NCBI GenBank assembly: GCA_903828955.1
Contig: CAIKOA010000031.1
Coordinates: 1-64,000 of the forward strand
From: an uncultured Microcaldota archaeon
GTDB taxonomy: Archaea > Micrarchaeota > Micrarchaeia > Anstonellales > Bilamarchaeaceae
Direction: 5' to 3'
DNA length: 64,000 nucleotides
Part shown: one piece after another, positions 6,052 to 64,000 of the stretch
How positions within the stretch are numbered: the stretch's first letter is position 1
How the letters are laid out: each line of letters starts with the position of its first letter
Made by a program: the position numbers and the translations under genes
Notes under the pieces: model-generated
Told to the model about the DNA's origin: nothing
Seen by the model: only the letters and a program-made list of their open reading frames with translations
The model's database searches: none

Positions 6052-6684
6052 ATGCGGGTGGCGACCCTGGATGAAAATACTAAAAGGCTAATAGATCGTT
6101 TTTCTTCGGAAGGAAACCTGGCGGAGCTGCTGCATTACTCCACCAGGACTGATGCCGAAATAAGGGCGTATGCCCTGGACAAACTTGTTGATTACTACAC
6201 AAACACAAAGGCTTATGGCCAGCTGGTGCATTTATGCGGAAGCGAAAGATGCCCGGAAGAGATAAGGGAAAAGGCGGGAAATGCGCTCATAGGGATGGCC
6301 AAAGCCGTGGGCCCGCGCTCCAATCAAACCTGGGAATACCTGAGCGGAAGGGAAAAGCTCCCCGTTAGCGAGGGCATTCTCCAGGAGCTTGCCTTGCGCG
6401 GCAATTTCCCGGAAAAAATAAGAGAGGCCGCCGGAATAAAAATGGTGGAACTGCTTAGGGAATCTGCGGGTTGGGAGTTCACGCGCTCCAAAGTGAGGCT
6501 TGAATTCGTGGCAAAAACAAAAAGATATCCCCCGAAAGTGCAGGAAGCCGCGCTGAATGCGCTCGATGCCCTGGATCTTAAGGAAAAGCACGCGAGGGAC
6601 CAGGCTACGCTAGGGAGAAGCGAAACGAACGAAAGAGCCGGCGGAAACGTAATTCCGATTAATAGGAACAGGACGAAGAAGTAG
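6052..6684 (+). CDS. HEAT-like alpha-helical repeat protein
   Basis: Repeated helical units (AEIRAYALDKLVDYY, EEIREKAGNALIGMA, EKIREAAGIKMVELL, PKVQEAALNALDAL). TATA-like TATATAC and TTTTTAAA upstream. Confidence 0.55.
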   Translation: MRVATLDENTKRLIDRFSSEGNLAELLHYSTRTDAEIRAYALDKLVDYYTNTKAYGQLVHLCGSERCPEEIREKAGNALIGMAKAVGPRSNQTWEYLSGREKLPVSEGILQELALRGNFPEKIREAAGIKMVELLRESAGWEFTRSKVRLEFVAKTKRYPPKVQEAALNALDALDLKEKHARDQATLGRSETNERAGGNVIPINRNRTKK

Positions 6685-6754
6685 CCCCTAGCCAAAATCC
6701 TGATAAACCGGGGAAAAAAGAATTATGGAAAGGAGCCTCAACCCCTTTCAACAC

Positions 6755-7618
6755 TTATTTCTTCTGGAGCTTCTTGTAGAGAAGGGTGTGCATAATGGAG
6801 TATGCGCTCAGCATGACCGCGTATATCGCAGTGAGCACCACCACGAAAACCGCGTACAAAATTAAAAGCAGGACTAAGCCGACCTCCTTGGATGCCAAGG
6901 AAAGTGCGACTGCCAGAACCATCAGCACTATGAAAATGGCGTATACAATGAAGAATGAGACCACGTAAACCACCCCGACCAGCGCAAGAAGCACCACCCC
7001 GAATACGATGGTCTCCCAGAATTTTTTTCTTACCAGCGCAACGGAGCCCTTTATGGAGCCGATTACCCCTTTTTTGCCTATCGCCATCTCCTGCAGAAGG
7101 TAATAGAAAAGGATGAAAAGCGGGATGGTTGCGGCCATTGCAATCAATAGAATTAACAGCAAAACGAGCGAAGCGGCCGTGGTGCCGGCCCATAGGTAAA
7201 ATGCTGCGGCCGGGATGCAGAGGACCAGGAAAACCAGCACGAAGAAGAGCGTCAGCTTTAATGAATTCAGAATATTTTCCATTGAGAAGAAAGGCAGGTT
7301 CTTTTTGTAGTAAACGTTTTGCATGAGCCCCATGAGCGCGGAGAGGAACAGCAGGTTCCCTAAGAGCATGGCGACGAGGTATAATGCGAGGATGAGCATA
7401 TTCGCACCGACTTTTGGATCGTTCGGGAAGACTGTGGGCCCAAAGGCCGAGCCGATGAGAGCGGCGATTATGAATAGTATCGTGTACGCCAGATAGGCCG
7501 CGCCAACCCTGATCGCTATCCTAAAAAAAGCGCCCTTCACCTTGCAGTAGTCAATTCCTTCCTTGAATACCGGGCCTATTAGACCGATTCCATTTTCGAT
7601 TCCTTCGAAGAAGCCCAT
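6755..7618 (-). CDS. Multi-TM membrane protein
   Basis: Six or more hydrophobic helices. Confidence 0.65.
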   Translation of the reverse strand: MGFFEGIENGIGLIGPVFKEGIDYCKVKGAFFRIAIRVGAAYLAYTILFIIAALIGSAFGPTVFPNDPKVGANMLILALYLVAMLLGNLLFLSALMGLMQNVYYKKNLPFFSMENILNSLKLTLFFVLVFLVLCIPAAAFYLWAGTTAASLVLLLILLIAMAATIPLFILFYYLLQEMAIGKKGVIGSIKGSVALVRKKFWETIVFGVVLLALVGVVYVVSFFIVYAIFIVLMVLAVALSLASKEVGLVLLLILYAVFVVVLTAIYAVMLSAYSIMHTLLYKKLQKK

Positions 7619-7752
7619 GGAGAAAATATTGGATGCGATGGTTTAAATACGTTCAGGCGGGCTTTCTGGGATAAAATAGTATCAATTTCATCTTTCGTTA
7701 TAAAGTGTAACCTTAAATTCCCTTCTACTATAATATATGCTGGGTGAAGGAG

Positions 7753-9858
7753 ATGAAGTTCGAGCAAAGGGAAACCCAGAAGCAGGATAAATTGGATATT
7801 TCAAGAATTAAGAAAATTAAGGTTGTCAAGCCCGGCTTTAAGCCGGAATCCGAAACAAGGCCGCACTCTCACTTCTGGATGAAGGTTGGGGCGCTCGCAT
7901 TCAGCGCATTTCTCGCCGCGGCGCCTTTAGCCGCAAAGCACAAGAGGGCGCATGAAAGCGCGCCTGTGGAAAAGCCTGCGGCGGTGCAGGTGGATGCGGA
8001 TGCCGGCCCTCCGCAAGAGGCATCTCCGCAGCCTCCGGCAGAAACGAATGAGGCGGACGCCGGAGTCGGGCAGCCAATTTCTGCGGCAAACGGGCAAACC
8101 GAGGATGATTTCTTCTCGAAAATGTATTCCAACGGAGAAATTTTTGGATTTGATGCAGGGGCGGCTCCCGAAGAGCAGCCCAAAACGGATGAAGGGCACA
8201 TCTTCAGCCACAACCTGATTTTCCCGGCTCTTCCAAAAAGAGTGAGCCAATACACGGACCCTTCGCTCTCGCAGTTTTCCGATACTGTGAAGATAAACGG
8301 GCAGCCAAGGGAAATAAACCTGGAGAATAACTTCGATATCGGCGCAAACCTGGTCGGAAACGAGGCGGGAAACGCAGTATTCGGAAGCGCAAGGTATAGG
8401 GACCTTGCCCGCCTTGACACAGGAATGATAGCCTGGTTCGGGAACCAGATGGTGCCTTTTGGAAGGGTCGGGGTGAGCCCGTACATGAACATCTGGAGAT
8501 TCAAGCTGGGCTATTATGGAAGCGCGGCTTTCCTTGGAAACATGCCTTCCTACGTATATAGTTCGCATTCGGTGGGAGTCGGGTATTCCCAGCCTATCGG
8601 GGAGAATTTCAAGCTCAGGATGGGGGGAGTGATAGGAGGGGCGCTCTCCTACCCGGTCTGGGATGACACGTATTTCAACCTGAGCGTGGGGCTTTCCATG
8701 GAGATTTACAAGATGTTCCTCCTTTACGGGGTTCCGAGCTTCTATTTTGCGGCGGACGACCCGATCAAGACGGCATACGCAGGGTATTACAGGCCGAAAT
8801 TCCAGGACGTGGAAGTCGGGGCGCAGGTCGCATTGAAGGAATACACGATACGCGCATTTGCGGACATCGGATTGATCGGAGACGATTATGGAATTTACAA
8901 CAAGTACGGAGTGAGGGGAACGAGGACGTTCAGCGTAAAGGACAATGTGGAAGTGGACCTGTGGGTCTCTTTGGGTGCGACGCAGTGGTCAGAGCAGCTT
9001 AGCGGCAGGTTTGATCCGTTGATAATGGCAGGGGCGACCCTTGTGATTGGAGGGCAATACGTGAACTCCACAAATACCGTGAACTACTCCCATGCGCAGG
9101 ACATGACGTGGGAGCAGGCAAAAACCGACAAGCCGGATTCGGCGCACCCGGGGCCATATGCGTTCGGGCATTCCGGAGACCCGTATTATGATGTGCCGAT
9201 AAACGAGACAAAGGCGAGGATATTGAATTCCGGGAGCTTTGACCAATTCAAGAATTCGTATGGAAACAGCCTCTCCCAGGACGAAGTGATAGTGAGGGCA
9301 AGGTTCCTTGGGGCGTTCCTGGAAAGGGTTGCATATGCGAACGGCGCATATGATGCGATGACGAACGGGAACATATTCGACAGCGAAGTGAAGCGCATTG
9401 CGGGAGCGGATGATGAACTAATCTTCCAATACATGAAGAGCTACGTGAACTGGTATAGCACGCACAGCTCTAAGGACCCGCTTCCGGACAACCTTAAGAA
9501 CGGGATTGCGGTTTGCGCGGGAATCCACTGGCTGATGGCGGAGTTCATGAGGGCAAACGGAGTGGATGCGGTTGTAAGGCAGGTAAGCACTCCAGAAGGG
9601 ATGCACGTCATTGCCATTGCGAAGCTAAAGGACAGGGCGGTTCTCGTGGATTACGGAGATACCCTCGAGGCATCCGATGTCGACCATGCAATGCAGCTCT
9701 ATGGGCAGATGAACGGGGCGCCGACCTTCGAATCGCAGACATTCGGAAAGAAAGGATACATGGGTACCGAGGTCACGCCCGCAGGAAGGCTCCTGCACGG
9801 AGTTGTGGGATGGGATAACGCGGATATCGTGAAGGAGGATTACCTCGGAGTAAAGTAA
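7753..9858 (+). CDS. Exported protein with beta-barrel-like central region and C-terminal transglutaminase-like domain
   Basis: Signal-like FWMKVGALAFSAFLAAAPLAA; Gly/aromatic alternating segments 8370-9080; C-terminal AVCAGIHWLMAEFM...GMHVIAIAKL...LVDYGDTL fits a Cys/His/Asp transglutaminase triad. Confidence 0.6.
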   Translation: MKFEQRETQKQDKLDISRIKKIKVVKPGFKPESETRPHSHFWMKVGALAFSAFLAAAPLAAKHKRAHESAPVEKPAAVQVDADAGPPQEASPQPPAETNEADAGVGQPISAANGQTEDDFFSKMYSNGEIFGFDAGAAPEEQPKTDEGHIFSHNLIFPALPKRVSQYTDPSLSQFSDTVKINGQPREINLENNFDIGANLVGNEAGNAVFGSARYRDLARLDTGMIAWFGNQMVPFGRVGVSPYMNIWRFKLGYYGSAAFLGNMPSYVYSSHSVGVGYSQPIGENFKLRMGGVIGGALSYPVWDDTYFNLSVGLSMEIYKMFLLYGVPSFYFAADDPIKTAYAGYYRPKFQDVEVGAQVALKEYTIRAFADIGLIGDDYGIYNKYGVRGTRTFSVKDNVEVDLWVSLGATQWSEQLSGRFDPLIMAGATLVIGGQYVNSTNTVNYSHAQDMTWEQAKTDKPDSAHPGPYAFGHSGDPYYDVPINETKARILNSGSFDQFKNSYGNSLSQDEVIVRARFLGAFLERVAYANGAYDAMTNGNIFDSEVKRIAGADDELIFQYMKSYVNWYSTHSSKDPLPDNLKNGIAVCAGIHWLMAEFMRANGVDAVVRQVSTPEGMHVIAIAKLKDRAVLVDYGDTLEASDVDHAMQLYGQMNGAPTFESQTFGKKGYMGTEVTPAGRLLHGVVGWDNADIVKEDYLGVK

Positions 9859-9865
9859 ATTTTTT

Positions 9866-10255
9866 CTATTTTTTATTATTTTTCTTCTTGTAAACGCTCA
9901 GCTCATGGAGGAGCGGAAGGCTGAGCAATCCGAAGGGAAGGGAGAAAATTATAGCAGCGGCAAGAAGCGGGCGCATTATTTTCCTTCCCTTATCATATTT
10001 GAAGGAGAGGGTGCTTCCGCAAATCACGAAAAGGAGGGCAAGGGTAAGGAACAAGGGAGGTTCGTAAGCCCAACGCCTCCCGACTATGAATAGCGGGAAT
10101 ACTATTATCGCCCCCAGCCCGGCGGTGCAGAGGGCATTAAGGAATGCAGCGTGCTCCGCGCCCCCGAGGCGCAATGCGAGGGCATCAAGGAATCTGCCGA
10201 TTGAAGAACCATGGGCCTGGTTTACCTTTTTTGTGAAGAATGCGTCAAAATCCAA
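9866..10255 (-). CDS. Small membrane protein (possibly PAP2-like)
   Basis: Three or more hydrophobic segments; weak similarity only. Confidence 0.4.
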   Translation of the reverse strand: MDFDAFFTKKVNQAHGSSIGRFLDALALRLGGAEHAAFLNALCTAGLGAIIVFPLFIVGRRWAYEPPLFLTLALLFVICGSTLSFKYDKGRKIMRPLLAAAIIFSLPFGLLSLPLLHELSVYKKKNNKK

Positions 10256-10393
10256 TCAAATCATGCTCCGGATGTGAAAACTGCCCTGCCGTTTAAGGAA
10301 AGAATGGGGAGAAAATATAAATGCTTAACTAAATCCGATTGGAGCTAAGAGAATAAATAGAAATAGAAGAAAAATAAGAAAATGAAAAAGAAC

Positions 10394-10588
10394 TCAGATT
10401 TTCTCTACGTTTTCTGCCTTTGGCCCGCGGTCTCCGGCAACAACTTCGAATTTAACCTTGTCCCCTTCGCGGATTCTGGTTCCCGCCGCAAGGCCGCTTT
10501 CGTGCACAAAGTATTCTTTCCCGTCATCTCCGGAAATGAATCCGAAGCGCTTGCTCACATTGAAAAATTTTACAGTTCCTTCTGCCAT
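10394..10588 (-). CDS. csp: Cold-shock domain protein (CspA family)
   Basis: MAEGTVKFFNVSKRFGFISGDDGKEYFVHESGL...GDKVKFEV; RNP1-type KRFGFI and YFVH motifs. Confidence 0.93.
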   Translation of the reverse strand: MAEGTVKFFNVSKRFGFISGDDGKEYFVHESGLAAGTRIREGDKVKFEVVAGDRGPKAENVEKI

Positions 10589-10691
10589 TGTCTACACCAT
10601 TTGTGTTGTTTTATCTTTCATAGCTCTTATAACCTTTCCTTTTTTGGTTTTTAGCCAAAAGGGCTATAATTCTAACCTTCCATTTCCCCCC

Positions 10692-11321
10692 ATGGCTGAA
10701 AAATCTGGCCTGGACAAGGCAATCTCCTATGTTGGAATTCTTGTAAGCGTTGTTGGAATACTTCTGACGGTTTTCTTCTTCTTCATTTTGAACGGGTTGA
10801 TTGATGGAATCCACAGCTCTGCAATTGCGGAGGTGGATTCCGCGATCGGGATAATGCAGGATGTTGGCGTAATCGTGGACGGGACCGCGAACTCCGTTGA
10901 TTCTTTCAGCTCGTTTGCGCAGAACGCATCCGGGGCAATGAATGAGACCGCGAGCGCGGTTGAGGGGATGAGCACCGCGATGAATGCGCTTGCAACCGGG
11001 GTTTCTTCAATCCCGCTCATGCCCGGGGACGTGTCGGGCGCATTGCATGACTCCGCAAGCCAGATACGGGATACCGCAGATTATATGAAGGAGACCTCTT
11101 TTTCGATGCAGAACGTATCCGGGAATGCGATTTCCACTGCGACAGGGGTCCAGCAATTGAAAGAGGACGTGCACACGAATATTGCGGCATTGGAGCAGGC
11201 GAAGAGGCAGATAGATGATATGCATACTACCGCGCAAATTGCGCTTATCCTGGGTACGGTGCTCATTGTGCTCGTATTCATACTGAACGGGATGAATTTC
11301 TACAAGCAATTGAAAGAATAA
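10692..11321 (+). CDS. Membrane protein with methyl-accepting-like coiled coil between two TM segments
   Basis: MAEKSGLDKAISYVGILVSVVGILLTVFFFFIL... long Ala/Ser/Asn helical region ...AQIALILGTVLIVLVFIL. Start moved from the track's 10458. Confidence 0.6.
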   Translation: MAEKSGLDKAISYVGILVSVVGILLTVFFFFILNGLIDGIHSSAIAEVDSAIGIMQDVGVIVDGTANSVDSFSSFAQNASGAMNETASAVEGMSTAMNALATGVSSIPLMPGDVSGALHDSASQIRDTADYMKETSFSMQNVSGNAISTATGVQQLKEDVHTNIAALEQAKRQIDDMHTTAQIALILGTVLIVLVFILNGMNFYKQLKE

Positions 11322-11385
11322 GGGATGCGCGGCTGAACGCTGTGAAAAAAAGTGTTTAAATACGTATCCCACATAGTATGTTATC

Positions 11386-12678
11386 GTGAAATGGAAATTC
11401 TGGAAGGGGAAGGAAGAGGCGCCCAAAAAGCCGGGAAACGGGCCAGGCAGGTTTGGGAAGGCCGAGGACAAGCCCGCACCTGAAGAGCTGCTTAGGAGGA
11501 ATCTGCGGGAAGAGATGGCGAAGGTGAATATGCGGCTGTTCTACCTGGGCAGCGGCGAACCCGAAAAGGAAAATGCGCTCCGGGAAAGGGCAGACCAACT
11601 GAGCGGGCAGGTAGAGGAAATTGAAGGAAAGAGGGGCGGATTAAGCAGGGGGGAAGAGCGCGCGGACACAATCAGATGGATTGAAGCCGCGGAAGAGGCC
11701 ATGAAACAGATAAAGGCGGAGCGCCCGCAAAAAGAACCCCGGCAGATCGAGTCGGACCTGCGTTTTGAACGCATTCAAAGGAGGCACGAAAAAATCGATC
11801 TTGACGAAGATGCGCTTGTGCGCTTTTTTGCATCGGGAGATGCCTATTGCAACCGCGGCCCGTTCCTGCAGCTTGCAAAGTTCCATGAACTTTTGGAAAA
11901 CGGCCCGGATGCAAAAAGAATAGAAAAACGGATAAAGAAAAAGGCGCGCAAGCTCGCAAAGAAAGAGCGCGGAAAAGAGGCGGCGAAGAATTTTGAAAAG
12001 GATTATGGAATAACCAACGTAATGTTTGCATGCCAGCATATGCCGGCGAGGGAGGTGGAAACCCTCCTGCACCAAGATGAGGAATACGAATCCAAATATA
12101 TGCAGGATGCGCTCTGGAGGCAGGTGATGTGCAGGGGCAGGGACGAGGGGCTATACGCCCAGGGGGTCGAGGGTGAAAAATCCGGGCTTTTGCGCCTCGT
12201 AAACATAATTCTTGAGGGAAGGATCCGCTTTGGGATGTACGGCACGCTGACCGAGACCCTGGGCAGGACCGACCCGGTCGTATCGGAAGCGGGCTCATAT
12301 GGGCCGTACTATGTGGTGATAGGGGGTGTATGCGGCGATATGGTCAAGCCTAGCCCCGAAAGAGGCTATATCATACCTGAAGAATTGCACTCCGCTTACC
12401 TTGTTCCGAGAGACTCTGAAAAAAAGATGGTAACCGAGGCGGTTTTCAGAGGGGTGGAACTTGGGATTGTAACCGAGGGCGAAGCGGTTGGGGCACTTGC
12501 CAGGCTCATAACTTATCAGGAATTCGTTGATGCGCCATATGGGGTTTTTGATTTTGTGTTCAGGGAAAAGGCAACCCTTTCTGAAAACCCTTCTGAAGAA
12601 GAGCGGGCGGCCCGGGAGTTCTTCTCTAAAAATGCAAAGGAAATGGAAGGCCGGCTTTCCCGCCCTGCGGGAAATTGA
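11386..12678 (+). CDS. Hypothetical protein
   Basis: Long ORF with TATA-like upstream sequence (TTTAAATACG); no recognised domain. Confidence 0.6.
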   Translation: MKWKFWKGKEEAPKKPGNGPGRFGKAEDKPAPEELLRRNLREEMAKVNMRLFYLGSGEPEKENALRERADQLSGQVEEIEGKRGGLSRGEERADTIRWIEAAEEAMKQIKAERPQKEPRQIESDLRFERIQRRHEKIDLDEDALVRFFASGDAYCNRGPFLQLAKFHELLENGPDAKRIEKRIKKKARKLAKKERGKEAAKNFEKDYGITNVMFACQHMPAREVETLLHQDEEYESKYMQDALWRQVMCRGRDEGLYAQGVEGEKSGLLRLVNIILEGRIRFGMYGTLTETLGRTDPVVSEAGSYGPYYVVIGGVCGDMVKPSPERGYIIPEELHSAYLVPRDSEKKMVTEAVFRGVELGIVTEGEAVGALARLITYQEFVDAPYGVFDFVFREKATLSENPSEEERAAREFFSKNAKEMEGRLSRPAGN

Positions 12679-12688
12679 AAAATGAGCC

Positions 12689-13480
12689 CTATTTCCTTAG
12701 TTTTAGCAGAATGAGAAGCATGGCCGAAAGGATTAGCGCGGAGAATGCGCAGGGCGGAATCTGGTTCTGGGGCGCAGCCTGAGAAGTTGGCTGCGTGGGC
12801 TGGGAGGGCGCCTCTGGCTGGAAAGCGGAAACGTTCGCAACGCAGGTGCGGGAAACTATCCTTCCTTCTTGGCAGGAGATGGGCGCGCAGGAGCTGTTTA
12901 TGCACTGCTCGTTTTGCGCGCATTCGGAATCCGCAATGCAGTTTACGCATGCGTGCTCGGAGGGATATGAGCCGGAAGGGCAGGAAAGGGGAACGCAAAG
13001 GAAGGAGCTGCATTTTTCATTTAGGGGGCAATCGGAATTCTGATGGCACTGGTAAGGGATGCAGGTGTGGTTTTGCGCATACGCATTTGTGCAGGAATAG
13101 GAAATGCAGGAATTTCCGCTGCATTTTTTATCAGTGGGGCAGGCGGAATCATTCAGGCATTCCACCTGCACGCAGGAATGGGCCTTTGGAATTGAGGTTT
13201 CGTTGCAGCTCAATTTCTGGCATAGGTATCCCTTGCAATAACGGTCAGGGGCGCAATCCTTGGAAGCCTTGCATTCAACATTAAGGCAGGCGTATTCCTT
13301 GCAGATTTGAAGGCTGCCGCAATCCGCATCCCCCTTGCATTCCACCTGGGCGCATAAGTTGCCTATGCAGGCAACTTGCGAACCGCAATCAGAGTCTTTT
13401 TCGCATGGGTCCCCTATTTCAAGGGAAAAGGAAACGCTGAAGGATAGGAAGAATAGAAGGAAAAACTGCGCCTTTCCCAT
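12689..13480 (-). CDS. Secreted protein with tandem Cys-rich modules and C-terminal TM-basic tail
   Basis: Repeats of DxDCxxxxxCxxxxCxxxxC; C-terminus PPCAFSALILSAMLLILLKLRK. Confidence 0.7.
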   Translation of the reverse strand: MGKAQFFLLFFLSFSVSFSLEIGDPCEKDSDCGSQVACIGNLCAQVECKGDADCGSLQICKEYACLNVECKASKDCAPDRYCKGYLCQKLSCNETSIPKAHSCVQVECLNDSACPTDKKCSGNSCISYSCTNAYAQNHTCIPYQCHQNSDCPLNEKCSSFLCVPLSCPSGSYPSEHACVNCIADSECAQNEQCINSSCAPISCQEGRIVSRTCVANVSAFQPEAPSQPTQPTSQAAPQNQIPPCAFSALILSAMLLILLKLRK

Positions 13481-22230: not shown

Positions 22231-23397
22231 CTATCTTTTGCGCTTTTTCATTGCTTTCCGAATTAGTCCGATCGTGTCGGGGCGTTCCCCTTCCTTTGCG
22301 TAATCAAGGGCGTTCTCGCCGTTCTTGTCTATTGCGCGGGGATCTGCGCCGCTCTCCAGAAGAATTTGGCAGGTCTTTGTGTGCGTCCAGAAGGCCGCTT
22401 CCATCAGCGCGGTTTCACCCCTGGAATTGCGCACATCCACGGGAATTTTCATGCTCAGGAGCTTTTCAAGGTTGTAAATTTCCCCTTTTCTTGTGGCTTC
22501 GAAAAATTCCCCGATCATTTTTTCCCGCTCGTCTTTTGATGCGGATTGCCAGTACCTGAATTTGGGTTCGGGAAGCGGGGGCAGCATCCTTATCGGGCAG
22601 AAAGGGGAGCGGGCGGGTGGAAGCGATGCGAGAGGCGAGTACGGGTCAATGGCTGAAGCTTCGCCTTCACGAATGCCTAATTTTTCTGCGAGCAAGGGGT
22701 TGCGGCGGTGAATCCTCTTCGCGCCCCTTTCCGGTTTTGGGGCCTCCGGAACATGCCTCTTTGGAGCCTCGGCGGGGCGCTTTTTCGGCCCGTTGAGGCG
22801 CGGGTTGCCAATCCTCCTGTCCAGAAGGCCTATCTCGTCCCACAGGAGGTTATTCCTGATATAATTTGAAATGAAGCAGGGCGCTTTTTTGGAGAACTCG
22901 GTCCGGCTTTTGATTCCTTCTTTCTTTATGAGCCATTTGCAGTAATCAATTCTCTCCGTACGTGCCTTGCCTTCCCAGAATTCGTAGTTCCCCCTGCCTC
23001 TTCCTTTCCTATCCATCATTTCAAATGGGGCATCGGGAGAATCGTTCTTCTGCCTGCAATTGGCTTTGTTGCCATCCCTCTTGTCCAAAATGCCAAGTTC
23101 ATCCCAGAGTGCGCGGTTCATGAAGTAATTTGCAATGAAGCCCGGGGCTTTTCTTGCGAAGTCGGTCCGGCTCCCGACCTTTTTTTTCTCTATGAGCCAT
23201 CTGCAATAACCCATTTTCTCTTCGTACGTCTTTGTGTACCAGAATTGGTAGCTTCCCTTGCCCCTCCCTTCTTTATCCATTATTTCGAAGAGGGCATCCG
23301 GAGAATCCTTTTTGGAAGTGAAAGGATTGGGCGCTTTCCTCTCGTCTTTTCCGGTTGCGGATTTTTTTTGGGAGGGTGCACACATCCTGGATACCAT
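22231..23397 (-). CDS. Protein with two tandem ~85-aa repeats and C-terminal ankyrin repeats
   Basis: Repeat 1 ...YQFWYTKTYEEKMGYCRWLIEKKKVGSRTDFARKAPGFIANYFMNRALWDELGILDKR; repeat 2 ...YEFWEGKARTERIDYCKWLIKKEGIKSRTEFSKKAPCFISNYIRNNLLWDEIGLLDRR; then ankyrin RGETALMEAAFWTHTKTCQILLESGADPRAIDKNGENALDYA. Confidence 0.65.
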   Translation of the reverse strand: MVSRMCAPSQKKSATGKDERKAPNPFTSKKDSPDALFEIMDKEGRGKGSYQFWYTKTYEEKMGYCRWLIEKKKVGSRTDFARKAPGFIANYFMNRALWDELGILDKRDGNKANCRQKNDSPDAPFEMMDRKGRGRGNYEFWEGKARTERIDYCKWLIKKEGIKSRTEFSKKAPCFISNYIRNNLLWDEIGLLDRRIGNPRLNGPKKRPAEAPKRHVPEAPKPERGAKRIHRRNPLLAEKLGIREGEASAIDPYSPLASLPPARSPFCPIRMLPPLPEPKFRYWQSASKDEREKMIGEFFEATRKGEIYNLEKLLSMKIPVDVRNSRGETALMEAAFWTHTKTCQILLESGADPRAIDKNGENALDYAKEGERPDTIGLIRKAMKKRKR

Positions 23398-54744: not shown

Positions 54745-55431
54745 TTACTGCGAATTCTCCTTATTTTTTGCAAGCTGTTCCACTTTTCCGGAGACTGCGC
54801 ACTGGATGTCGCTGCAAACAAGGACCTCGTATCCGGAAACCCTTGGTTGCCCGCGTTCCCTTGGCTTTCTTGCGGCTTCTATTGCGTTTCTTTCGTATAA
54901 GCCGAGAACCATGATGAAATCCCTGTATTCCCGCTCTTGGAAGAGGGAGTGGAGGCCTGAGAGCATGCACATCGCGGAATAGCGCTCAAGCGCATACCTG
55001 ATGTTCTGCTCCTCTTCGGAGACTGCCCTCCATTTCCAGTCGTCGTTTTTCATGTTCTTGCGGAAGCCGCCCGGGAAGTATTCAAGGCCGTGGAGAAGCG
55101 ACTGCGCCTCCCTCATCCGGGATTGCGGAGGGAATTTATCCAGAATTGCCTTTTCCCCTTCAATCCTTGCGCAGAAAATCCTGCAGAGTTCGGTGCGGAA
55201 ATACTTTCCCCCTTCGGGCCTTGCCTTCTCCAGAAGAACAAGTAAGGAGTTAAAAGCGGAATTCAGTTTCAAGAGAAGGAATTCCCCGGTTTCCATTTTC
55301 AAGAGGGCCGGATTGGATTTTTGGCTCTGGGAAGGCATTTGCGCCTGAGTTTGCGCCGGCATTTTCTCCGCTGCATTTCCGCTGGAGAACTCCAAAGAGA
55401 GCTGGCGCGCCGTCGGGTTATTAATCACCAT
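54745..55431 (-). CDS. Hypothetical helical protein
   Basis: ORF between convergent and divergent genes; no recognised domain. Confidence 0.5.
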   Translation of the reverse strand: MVINNPTARQLSLEFSSGNAAEKMPAQTQAQMPSQSQKSNPALLKMETGEFLLLKLNSAFNSLLVLLEKARPEGGKYFRTELCRIFCARIEGEKAILDKFPPQSRMREAQSLLHGLEYFPGGFRKNMKNDDWKWRAVSEEEQNIRYALERYSAMCMLSGLHSLFQEREYRDFIMVLGLYERNAIEAARKPRERGQPRVSGYEVLVCSDIQCAVSGKVEQLAKNKENSQ

Positions 55432-55496
55432 ATATTACTAATTTATATAACATCTAGTATATAAATATTTCGGTATGAAATAATACCTGAATCGAC

Positions 55497-56828
55497 ATGG
55501 AAGAGCTTAGGCCCGCGGGTGCGCAAAGAATTGAGAAGGGGATGCGAGAGCGGAGGCTAATTCACCGGCGGGGGCTTGTTGAGAGGCGCGAGAACTTCCT
55601 GGATGCTCTTCCTGGGAAAATAAGGATTGGAAGAGACTGCGAGGGAAAAGCCGTAACAACAAAAGAGCTCCGCGCATTCAAGGCGCAAATGCTCGGGGAC
55701 GGAATTGTGATCATGAGCACCGGCCTCAAGAGGAGCAACGCGGGAAGCAAAACCCTTGAAGGGACGGGCACAAGAACTTCGACTACTGACATCTTCCATG
55801 CGACGCGAATGGCAGTCCACATAAAAGAGGGAGAAGCCGCAGAGATTGAAGCAAGGGAGTCTAGGCTCAAGGAAATTGAGAAGGTGAATGCCGACCTTGC
55901 GGCTGCGGGGGGCGCTCTTTCGAATCAATTAATCCTTTCTTCAATTCGGGTGTTGCGCTCCCAGATTCTTGAGATGCTCAATAAGAATGATGCGGAAAAG
56001 CTCCTTTATCTTTCTGAAAATGAGCCCTTGCTTGGAAACATTAGCGAAGAAATGTTCAGGTTCGAATCAAGATTGAAAATAGATGCGGGAATGCAGCTTG
56101 CAAAGGCAGAGGAGACCCTCCAGAAGGCATTCTGGGCAAAGGATGGTTTTGCAAAGTGCAGGTTTGCATCCAACGCGTGCGCACAATTGCAGGCGTTCCT
56201 TAACCGCTTCGGGAAGTGGAGGGACGAGGAGGTGGAGGGTATATTGCAGTTCAACCTCCACAGGGAATGCTCTTTGCGCGCGGAGAGGGATTTGCGCTTA
56301 GATGAGCTTCTTGAAAAATGGGCGTCCGATTTGCGCGGGCAGAACCCCTGGGCAACGATGAACATGTGGAAAAAGGATTTGGAGAATGCTGAGAGGATTG
56401 AGAAGTGCGCCTCCGGACTCTCCAAAAAAGGGTGGAAGGAAAGCCTGGAAGCCCTCGGGAAGGAATTGAAGAAGAAAGGCTATGACGGGAAGTGGGGCAG
56501 ATATTCCGTTGTGGGGAAAATGCGCGAAGCATATTCGATTCTCAAGAAAGCCGAAGAGAAGGAGGGCGGCTGGGAAGAGGGAAAAGAGGAGGCCCGCGAT
56601 TTGCTCGAGGATGCGGCAAGGATATTGAAATCCGATAAGCCGGCGTATGTGCTTGCTCAGCTGAAAGAGTCCGGGCCAGAGGAGTATCTTGTTGGAGACG
56701 GGAAGAAGAGCGTTTATTCTTATCTTTCAAAGGGGGTGGAACTCCTTGGGAAAAAGGTTCCGGACGGCGCGGCCCGCTGCTTTGCAGGCGCGCATGAGAA
56801 GATGATGGAGCTCAACCGCGAACTCTAA
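55497..56828 (+). CDS. Hypothetical helical protein
   Basis: 443-aa ORF, Lys/Glu-rich helices. Confidence 0.55.
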   Translation: MEELRPAGAQRIEKGMRERRLIHRRGLVERRENFLDALPGKIRIGRDCEGKAVTTKELRAFKAQMLGDGIVIMSTGLKRSNAGSKTLEGTGTRTSTTDIFHATRMAVHIKEGEAAEIEARESRLKEIEKVNADLAAAGGALSNQLILSSIRVLRSQILEMLNKNDAEKLLYLSENEPLLGNISEEMFRFESRLKIDAGMQLAKAEETLQKAFWAKDGFAKCRFASNACAQLQAFLNRFGKWRDEEVEGILQFNLHRECSLRAERDLRLDELLEKWASDLRGQNPWATMNMWKKDLENAERIEKCASGLSKKGWKESLEALGKELKKKGYDGKWGRYSVVGKMREAYSILKKAEEKEGGWEEGKEEARDLLEDAARILKSDKPAYVLAQLKESGPEEYLVGDGKKSVYSYLSKGVELLGKKVPDGAARCFAGAHEKMMELNREL

Positions 56829-56874: not shown

Positions 56875-56946
56875 GCCTCTGTAGCTCAGTGGTAGAGCGC
56901 TCGCCTTGTAAGCGAGAGGTCGAGGGTTCAATTCCCTCTAGAGGCT
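56875..56946 (+). tRNA. tRNA-Thr (anticodon TGT)
   Basis: GCCTCTG...TAGAGGC acceptor; CTCGC-CTTGTAA-GCGAG anticodon arm; GAGGG-TTCAATT-CCCTC T arm. Confidence 0.96.
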
Positions 56947-56947
56947 T

Positions 56948-56990
56948 TGAACTTTTTTGTCCTTATGTATTCTGCTGGCAAAAAAGTTCA
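56948..56990 (+). terminator. Perfect 12-bp inverted repeat directly 3' of tRNA-Thr
   Basis: TGAACTTTTTTG (56948-56959) / CAAAAAAGTTCA (56979-56990), 19-nt loop. Confidence 0.5.
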
Positions 56991-57227
56991 TTAAAAACCG
57001 TTGGCGCACTTTTCTTTGAAGCTCTCAGGCCATCGCTGGTTGGGGCGCATCCCCTTTGCAACTCCTTGCGTATCTCCTCACGTAAATCCCCGCGGTCAAG
57101 AATGGAATTTGGTTCGGGCTCGCGCCTGAAGGATTAAAGTTTCTAATTTTGGGATATAGAAAATACAAAAAACCATTAAACAGAACATTAATATATCCTA
57201 TTAAGCTAAATATCAGGGTGAGTGGGA

Positions 57228-58631
57228 ATGCCGGCGCCGAAGGATAAAAAGTTCTATGGGGATTTCAGGCAGATACAGGAAAGATTGGATGCTTATTTCA
57301 AGAATAAAACGCCACTGGTCACGGTGGGGACCAGGACTTTCACAATAACGGACGTTGTTGCCCTTGGGATCCAATCCAAGACAAATATGTATTTCATAGG
57401 ATCCAGGGGAACCGGCAAAACCCTTCTTGCAGAGGCGATAAGAAAAGGAGTATTCAACGATGAGGGGTTTTACCTGAGGGGCGACCTCAACCTCCAACTG
57501 AAGGACCTTCTTATAAAGCTGGACCTGCAGGGAAAAACAGAGGATGAAGTTTACAAGATTGCCACTGAAAAGATAACTTTTAATTTCGCGCTCATCGACG
57601 AACTGAACCGCGTCCCCGGAATCCTCCAAAACCAGTTCCTGAATATTCTTGATGGGTACGTCGAGATAAGGGGGCAGAAATATGTCCTTGGGAACAGGGA
57701 CTACATGCTGATGGCGGCAACCGGAAACCCGCCGATAAACGGGGAATATACCGGGGTTTTCGATGAAGACCTTGCGCTCCTCGACCGCATTCCCTTGATC
57801 ATAGATACGGACGAGGTCCCTCTGGAAGAGGGGGACGTATTCGCAATAAGCGAGGCAGACATCGAGAAGGACATAATCCAGAAAGGGGACCTGCGCAATG
57901 AGGCGATCAGTTCCCATCGATACCTTAAGGAGAAGATAAGGGAGGATGCCGAAGTGAATACGGTAAGCTCTTTATTGAAGGAATTCGTCTACGGCTTATT
58001 CCGTTATGTCGAGCTGAACAAGGCCAAAACCGACAAAGCTCAAATGAAAACTTGGCGGGATGCGCTGTTGGCTGCGGGGGGAGAACATGCCACGGGCACT
58101 CTCATTTCTTTCTGTTCTGACATTTCCGTGAGAACTCTCCAGAGCGCAGGAAAACTCGCATATTCGATATATAAGGCCGCGGAAGTTGAAACCGAGCTGC
58201 TGAAAAGCAGCTCCCAGGGGGAACATCTCCCGGATGTCCAGATAGACGACTTCGTAAAGGCATATGTGGAAGCCCTCAAGCTGGCGCTCAATTATGACCG
58301 CAGATTCATACCCGAAGACCTTCCGGATACCCTCCATAAGACCCATGCAGACATGATTTCAACGGTATTCATGGACGTTTCAGGAAGGATCGACCCCAAC
58401 AAGTTCACTACCGCCTCGGTCCTGCTGATGGAATTCAATGAGCTCGCCCGGAAGAAGAACGAAACTGCAATGAGGGGAATGATATCTTTTGCAACCTCAG
58501 GAACCAAGGACAACCCGGTACTCAGTGCGGCGGTGAACATAATGGAGGCAAGAATGCGCGAATTGCGGGAGAGGGAAAGGTCCGGATACATCACAACTCT
58601 CCTTGGAGGTGGGGAAAATGCCGCTGATTGA
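57228..58631 (+). CDS. MoxR-type AAA+ ATPase
   Basis: Walker A FIGSRGTGKTLLAEAI; Walker B NFALIDELNRVPGILQNQFLNILDG; sensor AATGNPPINGEYTGVFDEDLALLDRIPLII. Confidence 0.9.
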   Translation: MPAPKDKKFYGDFRQIQERLDAYFKNKTPLVTVGTRTFTITDVVALGIQSKTNMYFIGSRGTGKTLLAEAIRKGVFNDEGFYLRGDLNLQLKDLLIKLDLQGKTEDEVYKIATEKITFNFALIDELNRVPGILQNQFLNILDGYVEIRGQKYVLGNRDYMLMAATGNPPINGEYTGVFDEDLALLDRIPLIIDTDEVPLEEGDVFAISEADIEKDIIQKGDLRNEAISSHRYLKEKIREDAEVNTVSSLLKEFVYGLFRYVELNKAKTDKAQMKTWRDALLAAGGEHATGTLISFCSDISVRTLQSAGKLAYSIYKAAEVETELLKSSSQGEHLPDVQIDDFVKAYVEALKLALNYDRRFIPEDLPDTLHKTHADMISTVFMDVSGRIDPNKFTTASVLLMEFNELARKKNETAMRGMISFATSGTKDNPVLSAAVNIMEARMRELRERERSGYITTLLGGGENAAD

Positions 58632-61600
58632 CCCGAAGGCGAGGCAGGAGATTCTTGAAGCATTCAAGAAAAAGGACAGCTCCATATTCTCAAAGACCGT
58701 TTTCATCGGGAAAAAGCCCGGCAGCGAAGGCCAGGAGCCCAGGTTCAAGAGGAACATTGCCCCGGAGCAGCAGGCAAAATTCAACCAGGAGTTCCACGAT
58801 GCCGTTTGGAAGGACGACCTTGAGGGCATAAAGGCCGCATTGCGCAAAGGCGCGGAAATGGACGTAAAGAATACTGAGGGCCACATTGCCCTTTCCATCG
58901 CATCCATGAGAGGAAACAGGGAGGTTGCAAAGTTCCTGATTGATAATGGGGCTGAGATTGAAACAAAGGACAAGAACGGGGCAACCCCGCTTATGCACGC
59001 TGCACAACGAAACAAGGAAGGAGTTGTTGAGCTGCTTTTGGACAATTATGCTGAAGTAGATGCGCAGGATGAGGAGGGCAGGACCGCCCTGATGGCCGCC
59101 GCCTCTGAATGCGGCATTTCTGTTATTGGTATTCTTATCGATAATGGCGCAAAGGTCGATGCGAGGGACAAAAAGGGCAGGACCGCGCTCTTAATCGCCG
59201 CAGAAAACCAGTATGTGGATGCCGTCGGGCTGGCAAAGGGGCTGATTGAGAGGGGCGCGGACCCGAATGCGAAGGATGAGAACGGCACGACCGCCCTGAT
59301 GAAAGCGGCCTTCCGGGGCCACAAAAATACGGCAGACTTGCTTATTTCCGAGGGCGTCGATGTTGGCGCGGAAAACAAGCTGGGGGATACCGCGCTCGTA
59401 TGCGCCACTGCCTATGGGCATATCTCCATGATGGATTTGCTGCTTGGCAATAAGGCGGACATAAACCACAAAAACAAAGAGGGAATGTCCGCGCTTGCAG
59501 TCGCCTGCAGGGGGGGATTTGATACGGACCGCGGGTTCACCACGCTAACTCCTGAAAAGGTGATCGAAAGTGCGAACTTCCTGCTGATGAGGGGCGCGTA
59601 CATCGAGACGGGTGATGGCACGTGCGGAACCCCCCTGATGATGGCTGCCGAGAGGGGGAATGCCGCCGCAATAAACGTGCTAATCAAGAAAGGGGCGAAT
59701 GCAGACTCCAGGAACGAACGCGGAGAGACTCCGCTAATGGCTGCAATTGAGAAAGGAAACCTTGAAGCCTTCGAACTTCTCCTCAACCACCCGAAAACAA
59801 ACCTGAATGCGGTTGACAACAAAAAGCAAAACGCGCTCATGAAGGCAGCGGGAAAAGAGGACCACTCCATCATATTGAAATTTGTTCCGCTGATGAAAGA
59901 CGCCCGGATACGTAGGGATGAGAAGGACGAGAACGGCTGGACCGCGTACATGCACGCCGCGGCAACCGGCAATGCGACGAACGTAATGCTCCTAAACCAC
60001 GCGCCGCACGAGCAGATAGCCGCTTCTGAGAAACTTGCCGGGGGAATCCCCCGCACCGCGAGCCTCTACGATGCGTTTACCGTGAGGGAGTTTGCCGACA
60101 AAGAAGGGAACACCGCGCTTATGATCGCCGCGGAGAGGGGCAGGAAGGATGTGGTGGGCATTATCCTTTACGACGTGCCCGATTCCCGCGTCCAGGGCAT
60201 GACCGGAGCGGAGAACGGCAAAGGGGAAACCGCGCTTATGAAAGCCGCTGGCGCAGGAAATACCGAAGTGGTTGAAACCCTGATCGCCAGGGGCGCAAAG
60301 GTTGACGGGAGAAACAAGAAGGGCTGGACCGCCCTCATGCATGCTGCGACAAAAGGCAATTCCAAGGCGATTGAATTCCTTATCGGAAAGGGGGCGGAAA
60401 TCAACGCAAAGGACGAAATCGGCAATGCGCCGCTCATGCTTGCCGCAGGGGAAGGGCACCTTGAGGCAGCCGAACTGCTCGCAGGCAAAGGGGCGGAAAT
60501 CGACCAGGGGGACAAAGACGGGGATACCGCGCTAAGCCGGGCATGCCATGGCGGGCACAAGGCGATTTGCGAACTGCTGATTGCCAAGGGGGCGAATGTC
60601 AATGTGACTGGGGAGAACAAAAATAGCCCGCTGATCATCGCTTCAAAGACGGGGCATTCCGAACTGATCGAGCTCCTGCTGAAGAATGGCGCAGATATAA
60701 ACGCGAAAGACAAGGACGGCTATTCTGCCATCGAGCATGCGGCACGTGAGGGCCATGTTGGCTCGATAGAAAAACTGCTGGACATGGGTGCGAATTCGAA
60801 AGAGAACAAAACGAGGGCGCTTGCGAACGCCGCGGTAAACAACAAGAAAGATGCTGCTGAGGCGCTGATTAAGAGGGGCGCTAACCCCAATTGGAAGCAT
60901 AAGGGCTGGGATATTCCGCTCATGTGCGCTGCGAGGGCGGGGGGGATGGAAACCGTCGAGTTACTACTTGCATGCAATGCAAAAGCGAACAATACCGGGG
61001 AGGACAAAAAAACCGCCCTGATGTCTGCCGTGGAGCACGGCCACATGGAAGTTGCGAAAGCACTGATACGGGCGGGCGCAAAAATAAATGTGGCTAGCAA
61101 ATCTGAAGCTCAAACCCCGCTTATTATTGCGATTGAGAAAAAGGATTTTGATATGGCAAACATGCTGCTGGATGCCGGGGCAGACCCGCGCATTAGAACA
61201 AAGGATGGAGAAAGCCCCCTGATGAGGGCGGCTGCAAATGGCTCGCTTGAAATAGTTAGGGTGCTACTTGGGAAACTGTCTACGTTCAGGGTCTTGGAAA
61301 AAAGCCACTACGGGCACACCGCGCTCTCAAAGGCCTGCGAGAACGGCCATGCGGAGATTGTCAGATTGCTCATAGAGAAGGGGGCGAAGGCGAATGTGAG
61401 GACCTCGGGCTCGGACGACTGGAAAAACAGCTCTTGCAGGAAATACACTCCGCTCCACTTCGCTGCGAAAAACGGGCACCTGGAATGCGCGAAAGTGCTC
61501 CTTGAGAATGGCGCGGAAAAGGACGCGAAAAACAAGGACGGGCAAACCCCGCTGATGCTCGCAGCCTGGGCAGGGCACGGGGATTTGTTTGCCAACCTTT

Positions 61601-62328
61601 TACTTAGCGGGGCGAAAATATCGGAAAGGGACAAAGACGGGGATAGCGCCGTGATGCATGCCGCAATAAACGGGAGAACCGATATCTTGTCCAGGCTTGA
61701 GGCTTTTTGCAAATTGACGGACACGTCCCTTGACTTTAACGAACGGAACAAAAAAGGGTGGAGCCCTGCGATGTATGCGGCAAGAAGCGGCAGCAAGGAT
61801 TGTTTTGATTTTGTGGTTGCGAGAGGGGCTAAGTTCGAAGTGGCAACCGATGGGGAGTGGATCGCAAGGCGCCACCTGATAGGGGCCAATGTGCTCAGCG
61901 GCTACGATTGGCAACCCCGTGTTGCCGATCTCCTTGTAGACATCGGCCTGGATGTGAACGTAAAAAATTCCTGGGGTACAACGATACTGATGCACGCGGC
62001 AAGATATGGGGATGCCGATCTCGTTAGAAAACTTGTGGAAAGGGGCGCGGATATAAACTTGAGGACCAGGGCTTCCGGAAGCGCGCTTGGCTTTGCGGTG
62101 GAAAACGGGCAGGGGGCAGTGGTACAGATACTTCTGCAAAAAGGCGCAAAAATAGAACGCGGGCATCTTGGAAGTGCGATAAAGTCAGGGCATGAAAAGG
62201 TTGCAAGGATCCTGGTTGAGCACGGCGCGAAAATCGGGGAAGAACACTGGAAGAGGGCGCTCAAAAAAGGCATGAAGGAGTTCTCTTCATTGCTTTTCGA
62301 GAAGTGGACGAATGCCTCAAAGAACTGA
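58618..62328 (+). CDS. Giant ankyrin-repeat protein (about 1,236 aa, roughly 30 repeats)
   Basis: Reiterated DkdGxTALMxAAxxGhxeVvelLixkGAxinakn units; start overlaps the MoxR gene by 14 nt. Confidence 0.95.
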   Translation: MPLIDPKARQEILEAFKKKDSSIFSKTVFIGKKPGSEGQEPRFKRNIAPEQQAKFNQEFHDAVWKDDLEGIKAALRKGAEMDVKNTEGHIALSIASMRGNREVAKFLIDNGAEIETKDKNGATPLMHAAQRNKEGVVELLLDNYAEVDAQDEEGRTALMAAASECGISVIGILIDNGAKVDARDKKGRTALLIAAENQYVDAVGLAKGLIERGADPNAKDENGTTALMKAAFRGHKNTADLLISEGVDVGAENKLGDTALVCATAYGHISMMDLLLGNKADINHKNKEGMSALAVACRGGFDTDRGFTTLTPEKVIESANFLLMRGAYIETGDGTCGTPLMMAAERGNAAAINVLIKKGANADSRNERGETPLMAAIEKGNLEAFELLLNHPKTNLNAVDNKKQNALMKAAGKEDHSIILKFVPLMKDARIRRDEKDENGWTAYMHAAATGNATNVMLLNHAPHEQIAASEKLAGGIPRTASLYDAFTVREFADKEGNTALMIAAERGRKDVVGIILYDVPDSRVQGMTGAENGKGETALMKAAGAGNTEVVETLIARGAKVDGRNKKGWTALMHAATKGNSKAIEFLIGKGAEINAKDEIGNAPLMLAAGEGHLEAAELLAGKGAEIDQGDKDGDTALSRACHGGHKAICELLIAKGANVNVTGENKNSPLIIASKTGHSELIELLLKNGADINAKDKDGYSAIEHAAREGHVGSIEKLLDMGANSKENKTRALANAAVNNKKDAAEALIKRGANPNWKHKGWDIPLMCAARAGGMETVELLLACNAKANNTGEDKKTALMSAVEHGHMEVAKALIRAGAKINVASKSEAQTPLIIAIEKKDFDMANMLLDAGADPRIRTKDGESPLMRAAANGSLEIVRVLLGKLSTFRVLEKSHYGHTALSKACENGHAEIVRLLIEKGAKANVRTSGSDDWKNSSCRKYTPLHFAAKNGHLECAKVLLENGAEKDAKNKDGQTPLMLAAWAGHGDLFANLLLSGAKISERDKDGDSAVMHAAINGRTDILSRLEAFCKLTDTSLDFNERNKKGWSPAMYAARSGSKDCFDFVVARGAKFEVATDGEWIARRHLIGANVLSGYDWQPRVADLLVDIGLDVNVKNSWGTTILMHAARYGDADLVRKLVERGADINLRTRASGSALGFAVENGQGAVVQILLQKGAKIERGHLGSAIKSGHEKVARILVEHGAKIGEEHWKRALKKGMKEFSSLLFEKWTNASKN

Positions 62329-64000
62329 AGAAGCCGGGGTAAAAGGCGAAACGAAGGGCAGGGAGCGTTTTGAGCAGCTGAAGCCAAACATGGCGCTTAA
62401 TCCTGAGAGAATTTATGAGTACAAACTTATGGTAGAGGAGCAGTTCAGGAGATATGGCCCCACTAAATCCAGGATTGTCGTGAAAACCAAAAAGAAAGCC
62501 GCGAGCCCCCTGATTGCCGGCATAGATTCCAACAATTGGGACGTGAAATTCGTAATAGATGAGGGGCTCAGGTTCAGGGAAGACCCCGAGCTTCTGAAAT
62601 ACCTGGAAAGGAGGAATGTCGTAGACCCCGTGAAGGAATTGCTCCGCACGGTTGCATACCACGAAATGGGCCACTGGGAATTCCCGCGCGGGACGCAGTT
62701 TGGATGCCCCTATGACAAGACCAGATATTACGCTTCGTTCATTGAGCCGATTCATGAAGAGCTAAAGAATTCCGGAAAAAATTTCAGCGATGGCTTTTGC
62801 AAAGCGATGTCCGGCAGGATTGCGAATGCCGTTATGGACGTAATCGACAATTACAACATGGCCAATTCTTTTGCCAAGATAAAAGAAGACACTGCCGGGC
62901 AGATGCTCTTCTGGTACCTCCAGGGGCAGGAGGGCGGAAACTATGACGCAGAGTATTCAATGTTCGTAAGGCTCAACCTTTCGCTATTCGGGGAAAAAGA
63001 AGACGCCAACCTGCTTAGAAGGTTCTTCTTGAGGGAAAACGAAGTGAATAAATCCGTAGCCAATCTGGAAAAGGTATTCACCCCGAAGGCGATCTATTCA
63101 AAAGAGAAGTGGGAGGAGCTCGCAAGGGAGTATACAAAAGAAGCAATAAAGCACCTGAAAGCGGATGAGACGCCCACGCACCAGCACTCCCCTGACGACC
63201 GGAGCGCCAAAGGAAGAAAGAACGAGGGGGGCGGAGAAGGCGAAGAGGGGGAAAGGGGGAAAGGGGACGGGCCGAAAGGCGGCGCTGGCCAGGGTTCAGA
63301 AGAAGGAGAAACGGCAGAAGCAGATGGCGAGGCAGGGGAAGGGGAGGGGGGCAGCGAAGCGGGAAAGGAGGGCGAAGAGGAAGGCGGAGAAGAAACTGGA
63401 GATTCTGGGGAAGATTCTGGAGAAAAGGAAGGGGACGAAGAAGGGGAATCCAAAGGGGGAAGCGAGCAAGAGGGTGAAGAGGAAGGCGAGGGGGAAGGGA
63501 GCGGCTCTGGAAAAGATTCTGAACAAGAGGGCGAAGAAGGGAAGGGCGAAGGGGGCGCGGAAGAAAAAGAAGATGGCGAAGGGGAGAAGCCTGATGAAGA
63601 AGATGAAGAAGACAAAAAGATTGGCTTTGGGGGAGTGGAGTTAGGAAGCGACCTAAGCCCGGACGACATTGAGAAGATAATGGGGGGCAGAGCCCTTGGC
63701 GGAAAGGGCATGAGCCCCAAAGGCGTGCCCTTCTACATAAAAACCGATGAAGCGCTTGATGCTTTTTACCGCCATCTTGCAAAAGGAATCCCTCTGAAGG
63801 CCGAAGGAAAACTTCCGGCCGGAAACTTCCCGATCATACCGGAAACACGTGAAAGGTTCGACCCGGAAGTGCACTCGTTTGAGGACGCAGACGGAGGGAA
63901 GCTCTTTTTTGACCCCATGGCGAGGGTGCTGGCTCCTTCTGTAGTGAAAACAAGGATGAACATAGGAATACCGATAAGGAAAGAGAAAAAAGGCCTCCCG
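62312..64000 (+). CDS. Predicted zincin metallopeptidase with long acidic Glu/Gly linker (truncated at right edge)
   Basis: ATG within the end of the ankyrin gene; open for 563 codons to the edge; VAYHEMGHWEFP (HExxH) followed by SGRIANAVMDVIDNYNMA, then E/G/K-rich linker 63150-63620. Confidence 0.8.
   Translation, partial: MPQRTEEAGVKGETKGRERFEQLKPNMALNPERIYEYKLMVEEQFRRYGPTKSRIVVKTKKKAASPLIAGIDSNNWDVKFVIDEGLRFREDPELLKYLERRNVVDPVKELLRTVAYHEMGHWEFPRGTQFGCPYDKTRYYASFIEPIHEELKNSGKNFSDGFCKAMSGRIANAVMDVIDNYNMANSFAKIKEDTAGQMLFWYLQGQEGGNYDAEYSMFVRLNLSLFGEKEDANLLRRFFLRENEVNKSVANLEKVFTPKAIYSKEKWEELAREYTKEAIKHLKADETPTHQHSPDDRSAKGRKNEGGGEGEEGERGKGDGPKGGAGQGSEEGETAEADGEAGEGEGGSEAGKEGEEEGGEETGDSGEDSGEKEGDEEGESKGGSEQEGEEEGEGEGSGSGKDSEQEGEEGKGEGGAEEKEDGEGEKPDEEDEEDKKIGFGGVELGSDLSPDDIEKIMGGRALGGKGMSPKGVPFYIKTDEALDAFYRHLAKGIPLKAEGKLPAGNFPIIPETRERFDPEVHSFEDADGGKLFFDPMARVLAPSVVKTRMNIGIPIRKEKKGLP

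Follow-up and report, generated by a model that had tools for sequence, protein, structure and literature searches.

A MoxR ATPase, a zincin-vWA protein and exchangeable adaptors form what looks like an undescribed diversifiable sensing system in DPANN archaea

What does an archaeal cell do with a giant ankyrin-repeat protein that is encoded between a MoxR-type ATPase and a zincin-like protein? The question is raised by an operon at the right end of the stretch of DNA analysed here (the window, 64,000 nt), which forms part of contig C31 (68,853 bases) of draft genome G000 from an uncultured member of the Micrarchaeota. A preliminary description of the window had reported three overlapping + strand genes after a tRNA-Thr, and this three-gene arrangement was confirmed, with the lengths of both overlaps exactly as described (Table 1). 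The window stops within the third gene, and the contig extends beyond its right end. Because a topoisomerase gene and then a phosphoglycerate-kinase-like gene (both named by sequence) follow downstream of the third gene, the operon consists of exactly three genes. All data presented come from draft genomes, by comparison of sequences and prediction of structures.

The full third protein, 761 residues long, starts with an N-terminal domain that carries the motif HEMGH; an acidic Gly/Glu-rich linker follows, and the C-terminus is a vWA domain that has a metal ion-dependent adhesion site (MIDAS). The preliminary description had staked its reading on finding such a vWA domain to the right of the window, and the residues past the window do complete one with an intact MIDAS (LIDSSGS, T649 and D673). 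In the AlphaFold2 model, the N- and C-domains were well ordered and residues 302-440 were disordered. Foldseek placed the C-domain in the vWA fold with a probability of 1.00, though at E-values of about 4e-3; with its predicted Rossmann-like fold and the DxSxS, T and D residues in place, the modelled domain is a vWA with MIDAS. The N-domain modelled alone reached a predicted local distance difference test score (pLDDT) of 93.8. Its leading Foldseek matches in the PDB were zincins (MATCAP, selecase and Bacteroides BACCAC_01431), at E-values of 0.04-0.5 and low template modelling scores, and for this reason the zincin fold is suggested by motif and model rather than proven. Both HEMGH and NAVMDVIDN, which the preliminary description had read in the third gene, were located there, and D176 within the latter is a candidate third zinc ligand. 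The HExxH motif and the downstream D were present in 21/21 relatives, in which the MIDAS D, T and D were also invariant.

The zincin-vWA protein had no matching family in Pfam, NCBIfam, PHROGs or PADLOC. A DUF2201/COG3864-type assignment, proposed in the preliminary description, was not supported: there was no match to DUF2201_N (PF13203) or to any other Pfam family, and profile-profile comparison with DUF2201, represented by a thin profile of few sequences, gave the N-domain a probability of 0.2% and the vWA one of 28%. Proteins of that group, which are metallopeptidase-like plus vWA-like and often occur with MoxR, do resemble the third protein in combining a zincin-like N-domain, a linker and a vWA in one chain; they differ in the lack of any sequence match and in these low profile probabilities.

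Motifs and profile similarity identify the first protein as a MoxR-clade AAA+ ATPase. A profile of 17 relatives matched midasin (5e-16), its best match in the PDB, and MoxR 2r44 (3e-9). Walker A, the Walker B DE, sensor 1 N167, Arg finger R187 and R302 were conserved.

Named genomes were scanned for the zincin-vWA protein. It was found in Micrarchaeota, Nanoarchaeia, Pacearchaeota and Woesearchaeota, plus one distant deltaproteobacterial relative, and was present in 21/301 genomes of the window's phylum and 32/371 sampled from the Nanoarchaeota-side phylum. This distribution is sparse, at ~7-9% of sampled genomes. Neighbourhoods were read at 59 distinct zincin-vWA loci from Micrarchaeota and Nanoarchaeota and the deltaproteobacterial relative. 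A MoxR gene adjoined the zincin-vWA gene at 46/59 loci, many of the remaining loci being truncated contigs, and the zincin was fused to the vWA in every family member. The arrangement is therefore not due to chance, given this pairing and the HExxH, downstream D and MIDAS residues kept in 21/21 relatives. Synteny of MoxR, an intervening slot and the zincin protein in other genomes was a second result on which the preliminary description had staked its reading, and this gene arrangement was conserved across DPANN. Two loci had further features. The deltaproteobacterial locus (L031, 6582-10606) holds a distant MoxR and HExxH-vWA pair, with a separate DUF2201 protein in the same genome, and at L020 (11758-12953) two paralogous deoxynucleoside-kinase-like P-loop proteins come right after zincin-vWA.

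The slot between or after the two core genes was occupied by one to nine small proteins per locus. At ~28 loci, at least two of these small proteins had a common N-terminal stretch and divergent bodies; we call the shared N-terminal stretch the head and a protein that bears it an adaptor. The automatic count of loci with shared heads, made with simple open reading frame calling, was 34; it includes unrelated neighbours at no fewer than five loci (L020, L068, L076, L077 and L079) and one uncertain locus, L125. Across 58 within-locus pairs, median identity was 73% over the first 30 residues and 32% over the remainder. Heads compared between loci were 22% identical, which is background. In one genome (G472) with two loci, the MoxR and zincin-vWA proteins were 83% identical between loci. 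The G472 heads were identical over ~24 residues within each locus and 33% identical across loci, while the corresponding bodies were 62-64% identical. Thus the head tracks the locus and not the body, as would a tag that docks proteins on the machine of their own locus. Intralocus gene conversion could contribute to the head identity. At most loci the adaptors look cytosolic, with no strongly hydrophobic signal or membrane segment by hydropathy. At L066 (G112:C26, 11252-18797), adaptor-like proteins headed by DPIL..Y...G had strongly hydrophobic segments or helical-repeat bodies, which suggests membrane-linked versions. At L075 (G227), at least eight tandem adaptor paralogs with a MEKEAQKPQIAPPRIRN head flank MoxR and zincin-vWA.

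Many Nanoarchaeota-side loci carried a reverse transcriptase (RVT_1 E=2.9e-19) within ~4 kb. The template repeat next to the reverse transcriptase matched the 3' ends of adaptor genes on both sides of zincin-vWA, and scanning both strands gave template/variable pairs with all mismatches at template adenine or the complementary T. When alignments were scored without favouring mismatches at adenine, 337/363 mismatches (93%) in 28 variable repeats from 13 loci fell at template adenines, and the templates were 30% adenine. Such adenine-specific mismatches are the signature of a diversity-generating retroelement; by the sequence evidence of reverse transcriptase, template repeat, variable repeat and adenine bias, this is what the relatives' loci contain. 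Twelve of the 13 loci hold zincin-vWA, and together with L021 and L025, found with lenient adenine scoring, there are 14 loci with retroelement-targeted bodies. Reverse transcriptases of this type were present in 111/371 genomes, including 16 of the 32 with zincin-vWA (p=0.01), and 12 zincin-vWA loci had one nearby compared with ~1 expected by a rough estimate. Two loci with paralogous proteins were also inspected. At L019 (Nanoarchaeia, 3979-12780), seven paralogous lectin-like adaptors with one head common to all surround zincin-vWA; no template match to them was found with the two distant reverse transcriptases of the genome, and these paralogs may have stopped varying or may depend on a different template. 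The proteins of L009 ORFs 2, 3 and 10 (open reading frames; G031) are 72-74% identical over most of their length and 31-50% identical in the last 45 residues, a pattern as if diversified, yet the draft genome G031 yielded no reverse transcriptase.

Body types across loci included ankyrin, lectin-like, beta-helix-like, propeller-like and helical repeats. The adaptor bodies had no sequence match in the PDB, and the lectin-like bodies none in Pfam; a lectin fold for the diversified bodies is inferred from their C-terminal variable-repeat pattern. Interchange of heads and bodies was seen in the micrarchaeon G112 (the same as G059). There, ankyrin proteins and one lectin-like protein carry head A (LIDxKKK.EVL.RI), and head B (RDPxLDAIEREGLFG) is shared by an ankyrin protein and the actual retroelement target, so that all four combinations of two heads and two body types are found in one genome. 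The two lectin-like proteins are identical at 134/262 aligned positions. Given this interchange and the other body folds, the ankyrin array of the window is one filling of a multi-fold recognition slot.

The window ankyrin protein matched Ank_2 at E=3.7e-189, and an iterated profile counted 32 repeats, close to the ~30 first claimed. Its N-terminus consists of two residues followed by LIDPKARQEILEAF, and this candidate head aligns with LIDPEKKKEVLQRIKDR. A profile of micrarchaeal heads ranked the window ankyrin first of ~690 non-adaptor proteins with E=0.015, the next being 0.19. At this E-value, assignment of the N-terminus as an adaptor head is likely, not certain. The genome encodes further ankyrin proteins, none of which bears the head as judged by eye. 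One ankyrin-containing protein of ~396 aa at 22264-22539 (-) in the window has two copies of the motif SPDA.FE.MD..GRG.....W in its N-terminal half. The suggestion in the preliminary description that the ankyrin surface directs the motor and the peptidase-like protein was strengthened insofar as the slot in the middle takes swappable adaptors with shared heads; the interpretation as a whole is partly supported.

How the operon came to lie beside the tRNA gene was addressed by comparison with congeners. In 5/5 congeners examined, the tRNA-Thr was directly upstream of the topoisomerase gene at a distance of 86-179 bp. The same gap in the window genome is 7.8 kb and is filled by exactly the three-gene operon, which is therefore a discrete insertion. 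This empty site in congeners and the retroelements of relatives are additions to the preliminary description. One congener, G003, has zincin-vWA at a different site with an ankyrin protein on each side. At 52.6% G+C, the insert differs little from the window (50.5%). Signs of classical tRNA integration were sought: neither the window nor the 12.9-kb contig end repeats the 3' end of the tRNA, so no attR was identified, and there is no integrase within the insert. Adjacency to a tRNA is not general among loci of the family. A viral origin was likewise unsupported, with no relatives in the scanned IMG/VR contigs and no PHROGs match for zincin-vWA. On the other side of the tRNA-Thr, two divergent unannotated genes lie at 54745-56828; a 228-aa gene is at the same site in 2/5 congeners, and a 443-aa gene, which has no Pfam match, in 3/5.

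Table 1. Coordinates of the operon, its parts and the left border, in window positions
Feature	Position	Strand	Evidence or remark
tRNA-Thr (anticodon TGT)	56875..56946	+	ARAGORN and Rfam; left border of inserted operon
Insertion absent from five congeners	56947..64000	.	In the contig reaches 64742, the base before the topoisomerase gene
MoxR-clade AAA+ ATPase, 467 aa	57228..58631	+	AAA_5 E=1.4e-6; profile matches; invariant motifs
MoxR/ankyrin gene overlap, 14 nt	58618..58631	+	Gene coordinates
Giant ankyrin adaptor (likely), 1236 aa, ~32 repeats	58618..62328	+	Ank_2 E=3.7e-189; iterated profile
Candidate N-terminal head (MPLIDPKARQEILEAFKKKDSSIFSK) of ankyrin adaptor	58618..58701	+	Hidden Markov model of relatives' heads, E=0.015
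Ankyrin/zincin-vWA gene overlap, 17 nt	62312..62328	+	Gene coordinates
Zincin-like/acidic linker/vWA protein, 761 aa	62312..64000	+	Gene runs on to contig position 64597; AlphaFold2 model
N-terminal zincin-like domain, aa 14-285	62351..63166	+	Model pLDDT 93.8; weak Foldseek zincin matches
HEMGH, predicted zinc-binding/catalytic motif	62660..62674	+	HExxH in 21/21 relatives
NAVMDVIDN	62825..62851	+	N172 and D176 invariant
Disordered acidic Gly/Glu-rich linker, aa 302-440	63215..63631	+	pLDDT <50

We favor, with moderate confidence, a model in which MoxR and zincin-vWA form a machine for remodelling or proteolysis into which recognition adaptors plug. The MoxR ATPase, presumably hexameric, would pair with the vWA of the third protein, from which the zincin-like N-domain would hang by the flexible acidic linker. 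The locus-specific head would attach the adaptor to the MoxR/vWA pair of the same locus, where the vWA MIDAS is the obvious candidate to receive an acidic residue of the head. The variable body would bind ligand and so select the client. Ligand binding would then deliver either the ligand or the adaptor to the motor, to be remodelled and probably cut by the zincin. By analogy with NorQ/NorD, MoxR may act on the vWA and linker, moving or exposing the zincin domain. The linked retroelement of the relatives would rewrite the bodies, and in the window genome one very long ankyrin array would take the slot. The most likely use would be intracellular surveillance of foreign or partner-derived proteins. 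Mutation of the bodies by retroelements implies that the bound targets change fast, which favors foreign molecules. A more specific proposal, which we advance only tentatively, is an undescribed intracellular, somatically diversifiable DPANN recognition system in which head-docked hypermutated or repeat receptors pass foreign proteins on to an unfoldase-protease made of MoxR and zincin-vWA, with receptors that can switch between a retroelement-mutated lectin-like fold and ankyrin arrays.

The architecture is seen directly, in gene order, domain content, catalytic and MIDAS residues kept in relatives, common heads on divergent bodies, hypermutation at template adenines, exchange of body types and the insertion beside tRNA-Thr; we infer the docking by the head, the delivery of ligand, the cleavage and the defensive purpose. 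Several observations count against a machine with plug-in adaptors. The zincin fold itself comes from a motif and weak Foldseek matches. The window ankyrin's head matches those of relatives weakly (E=0.015), and the 95.6% complete draft of G000 contains no retroelement reverse transcriptase, so the window ankyrin is not diversified by a retroelement. At some loci no adaptor is recognisable, or the slot is filled by a helical protein (L011, L065 and L071). Finally, in several genomes of Micrarchaeota family f21 (L076, L077, L078 and L079), MoxR/zincin-vWA immediately precedes genes similar to those for proteasome alpha and exosome subunits, which suggests housekeeping versions. These last neighbours are the argument for a quality control role, in which the MoxR/zincin-vWA processing pair would use general repeat-protein adaptors with no part in conflict. 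We regard this as improbable for the family, which is found in just ~7-9% of sampled genomes and is missing from the window's insertion site in all congeners; retroelement diversification of such an adaptor would also be hard to explain.

A maturation chaperone deserves more weight, although we still think it unlikely. MoxR and zincin-vWA would in this case fold, assemble or process head-bearing clients that act elsewhere, for example in contact with archaeal partner cells, and the head would be a client tag that may be trimmed by the zincin. Known MoxR-vWA pairs such as NorQD remodel one specific client (PMC13036017, PMC9976466), the heads are short and locus-specific, and several L066 adaptors have strongly hydrophobic segments. 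However, such segments are absent from the adaptors at most loci, and ankyrin, lectin-like and propeller-like bodies are unlikely to share one folding need. Just as doubtful is a reading in which the MoxR-vWA conflict systems of bacteria have an archaeal branch here, with sensing leading to cell death or growth arrest and the zincin as toxic effector. Consistent with this, the bacterial systems couple MoxR, vWA, diversity-generating retroelements and peptidase effectors (PMC7159879, PMC10907252), and the loci are sporadically distributed, with insertion at a tRNA site in the window genome. None of the four third components that define the bacterial systems was detected, however; the zincin is always fused to the vWA and not swapped like an effector, and the vWA is not part of the diversified protein.

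Literature searches found no description of the system; an earlier mention is possible in the 2017 Nature Microbiology paper of Paul et al., reportedly on DPANN retroelements. Among described systems, Kaur et al. (2020) defined four MoxR-vWA ternary conflict systems (VMAP, iSTAND, FtsH and beta-propeller), some of them retroelement-linked (PMC7159879). These are similar in having MoxR beside a MIDAS vWA, a variable third component, frequent retroelement coupling and peptidase domains. VMAP, iSTAND, FtsH and the vWA-fused propeller gave no match in the window proteins or tested relatives (Pfam, NCBIfam and PADLOC). Unlike in the ternary systems, the zincin is N-terminal to the vWA in all members here, and the variable proteins are separate, multi-copy, equipped with a locus-specific head and almost confined to DPANN archaea. 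For multicellular bacteria, Dore et al. (2024) proposed MoxR-associated antigen sensors that are diversified by retroelements, and they stated that the clade 5F retroelements of the candidate phyla radiation (CPR) and DPANN are unassociated with conflict domains (PMC10907252). Hypermutated recognition bodies next to a MoxR ATPase are common to those sensors and the loci studied here. In contrast, the variable body here is not fused to a vWA, and 14 DPANN loci, whatever the clade of their reverse transcriptases, link a retroelement to the MoxR-vWA pair.

Other comparisons bear on the core proteins and on the diversified bodies. In the well-studied NorQ/NorD pair, a finger of the vWA reaches into the pore of the ring, and the ATPase is proposed to twist and stretch the linker (PMC13036017, PMC9976466). 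NorD similarly consists of an N-terminal domain, a disordered linker and a C-terminal MIDAS vWA, and its N-domain is thought to set specificity (PMC13036017, PMC9976466); its N-domain, however, is not described as a zincin, and NorQ/NorD has a single dedicated client and no adaptor genes. Midasin/Rea1 also combines a MoxR-clade AAA+, an acidic linker and a MIDAS vWA, but as a single giant eukaryotic ribosome-assembly protein without peptidase or adaptors. Nanoarchaeal AvpA, which has a C-type lectin fold (PMC5006420), is likewise an archaeal retroelement-diversified protein, whereas the adaptors here match no solved structure by sequence and their lectin fold is putative.

Taken together, this locus type looks like an undescribed diversifiable sensing system in tiny uncultured archaea, and it adds to the known protein families a zincin-vWA family that Pfam, NCBIfam, PHROGs and PADLOC lack. 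Ankyrin arrays and hypermutated domains occur interchangeably on one putative docking head, similar to swappable receptors on a common signalling stem. Tying the diversity-generating retroelements of DPANN archaea to a specific molecular machine makes their cellular role testable.

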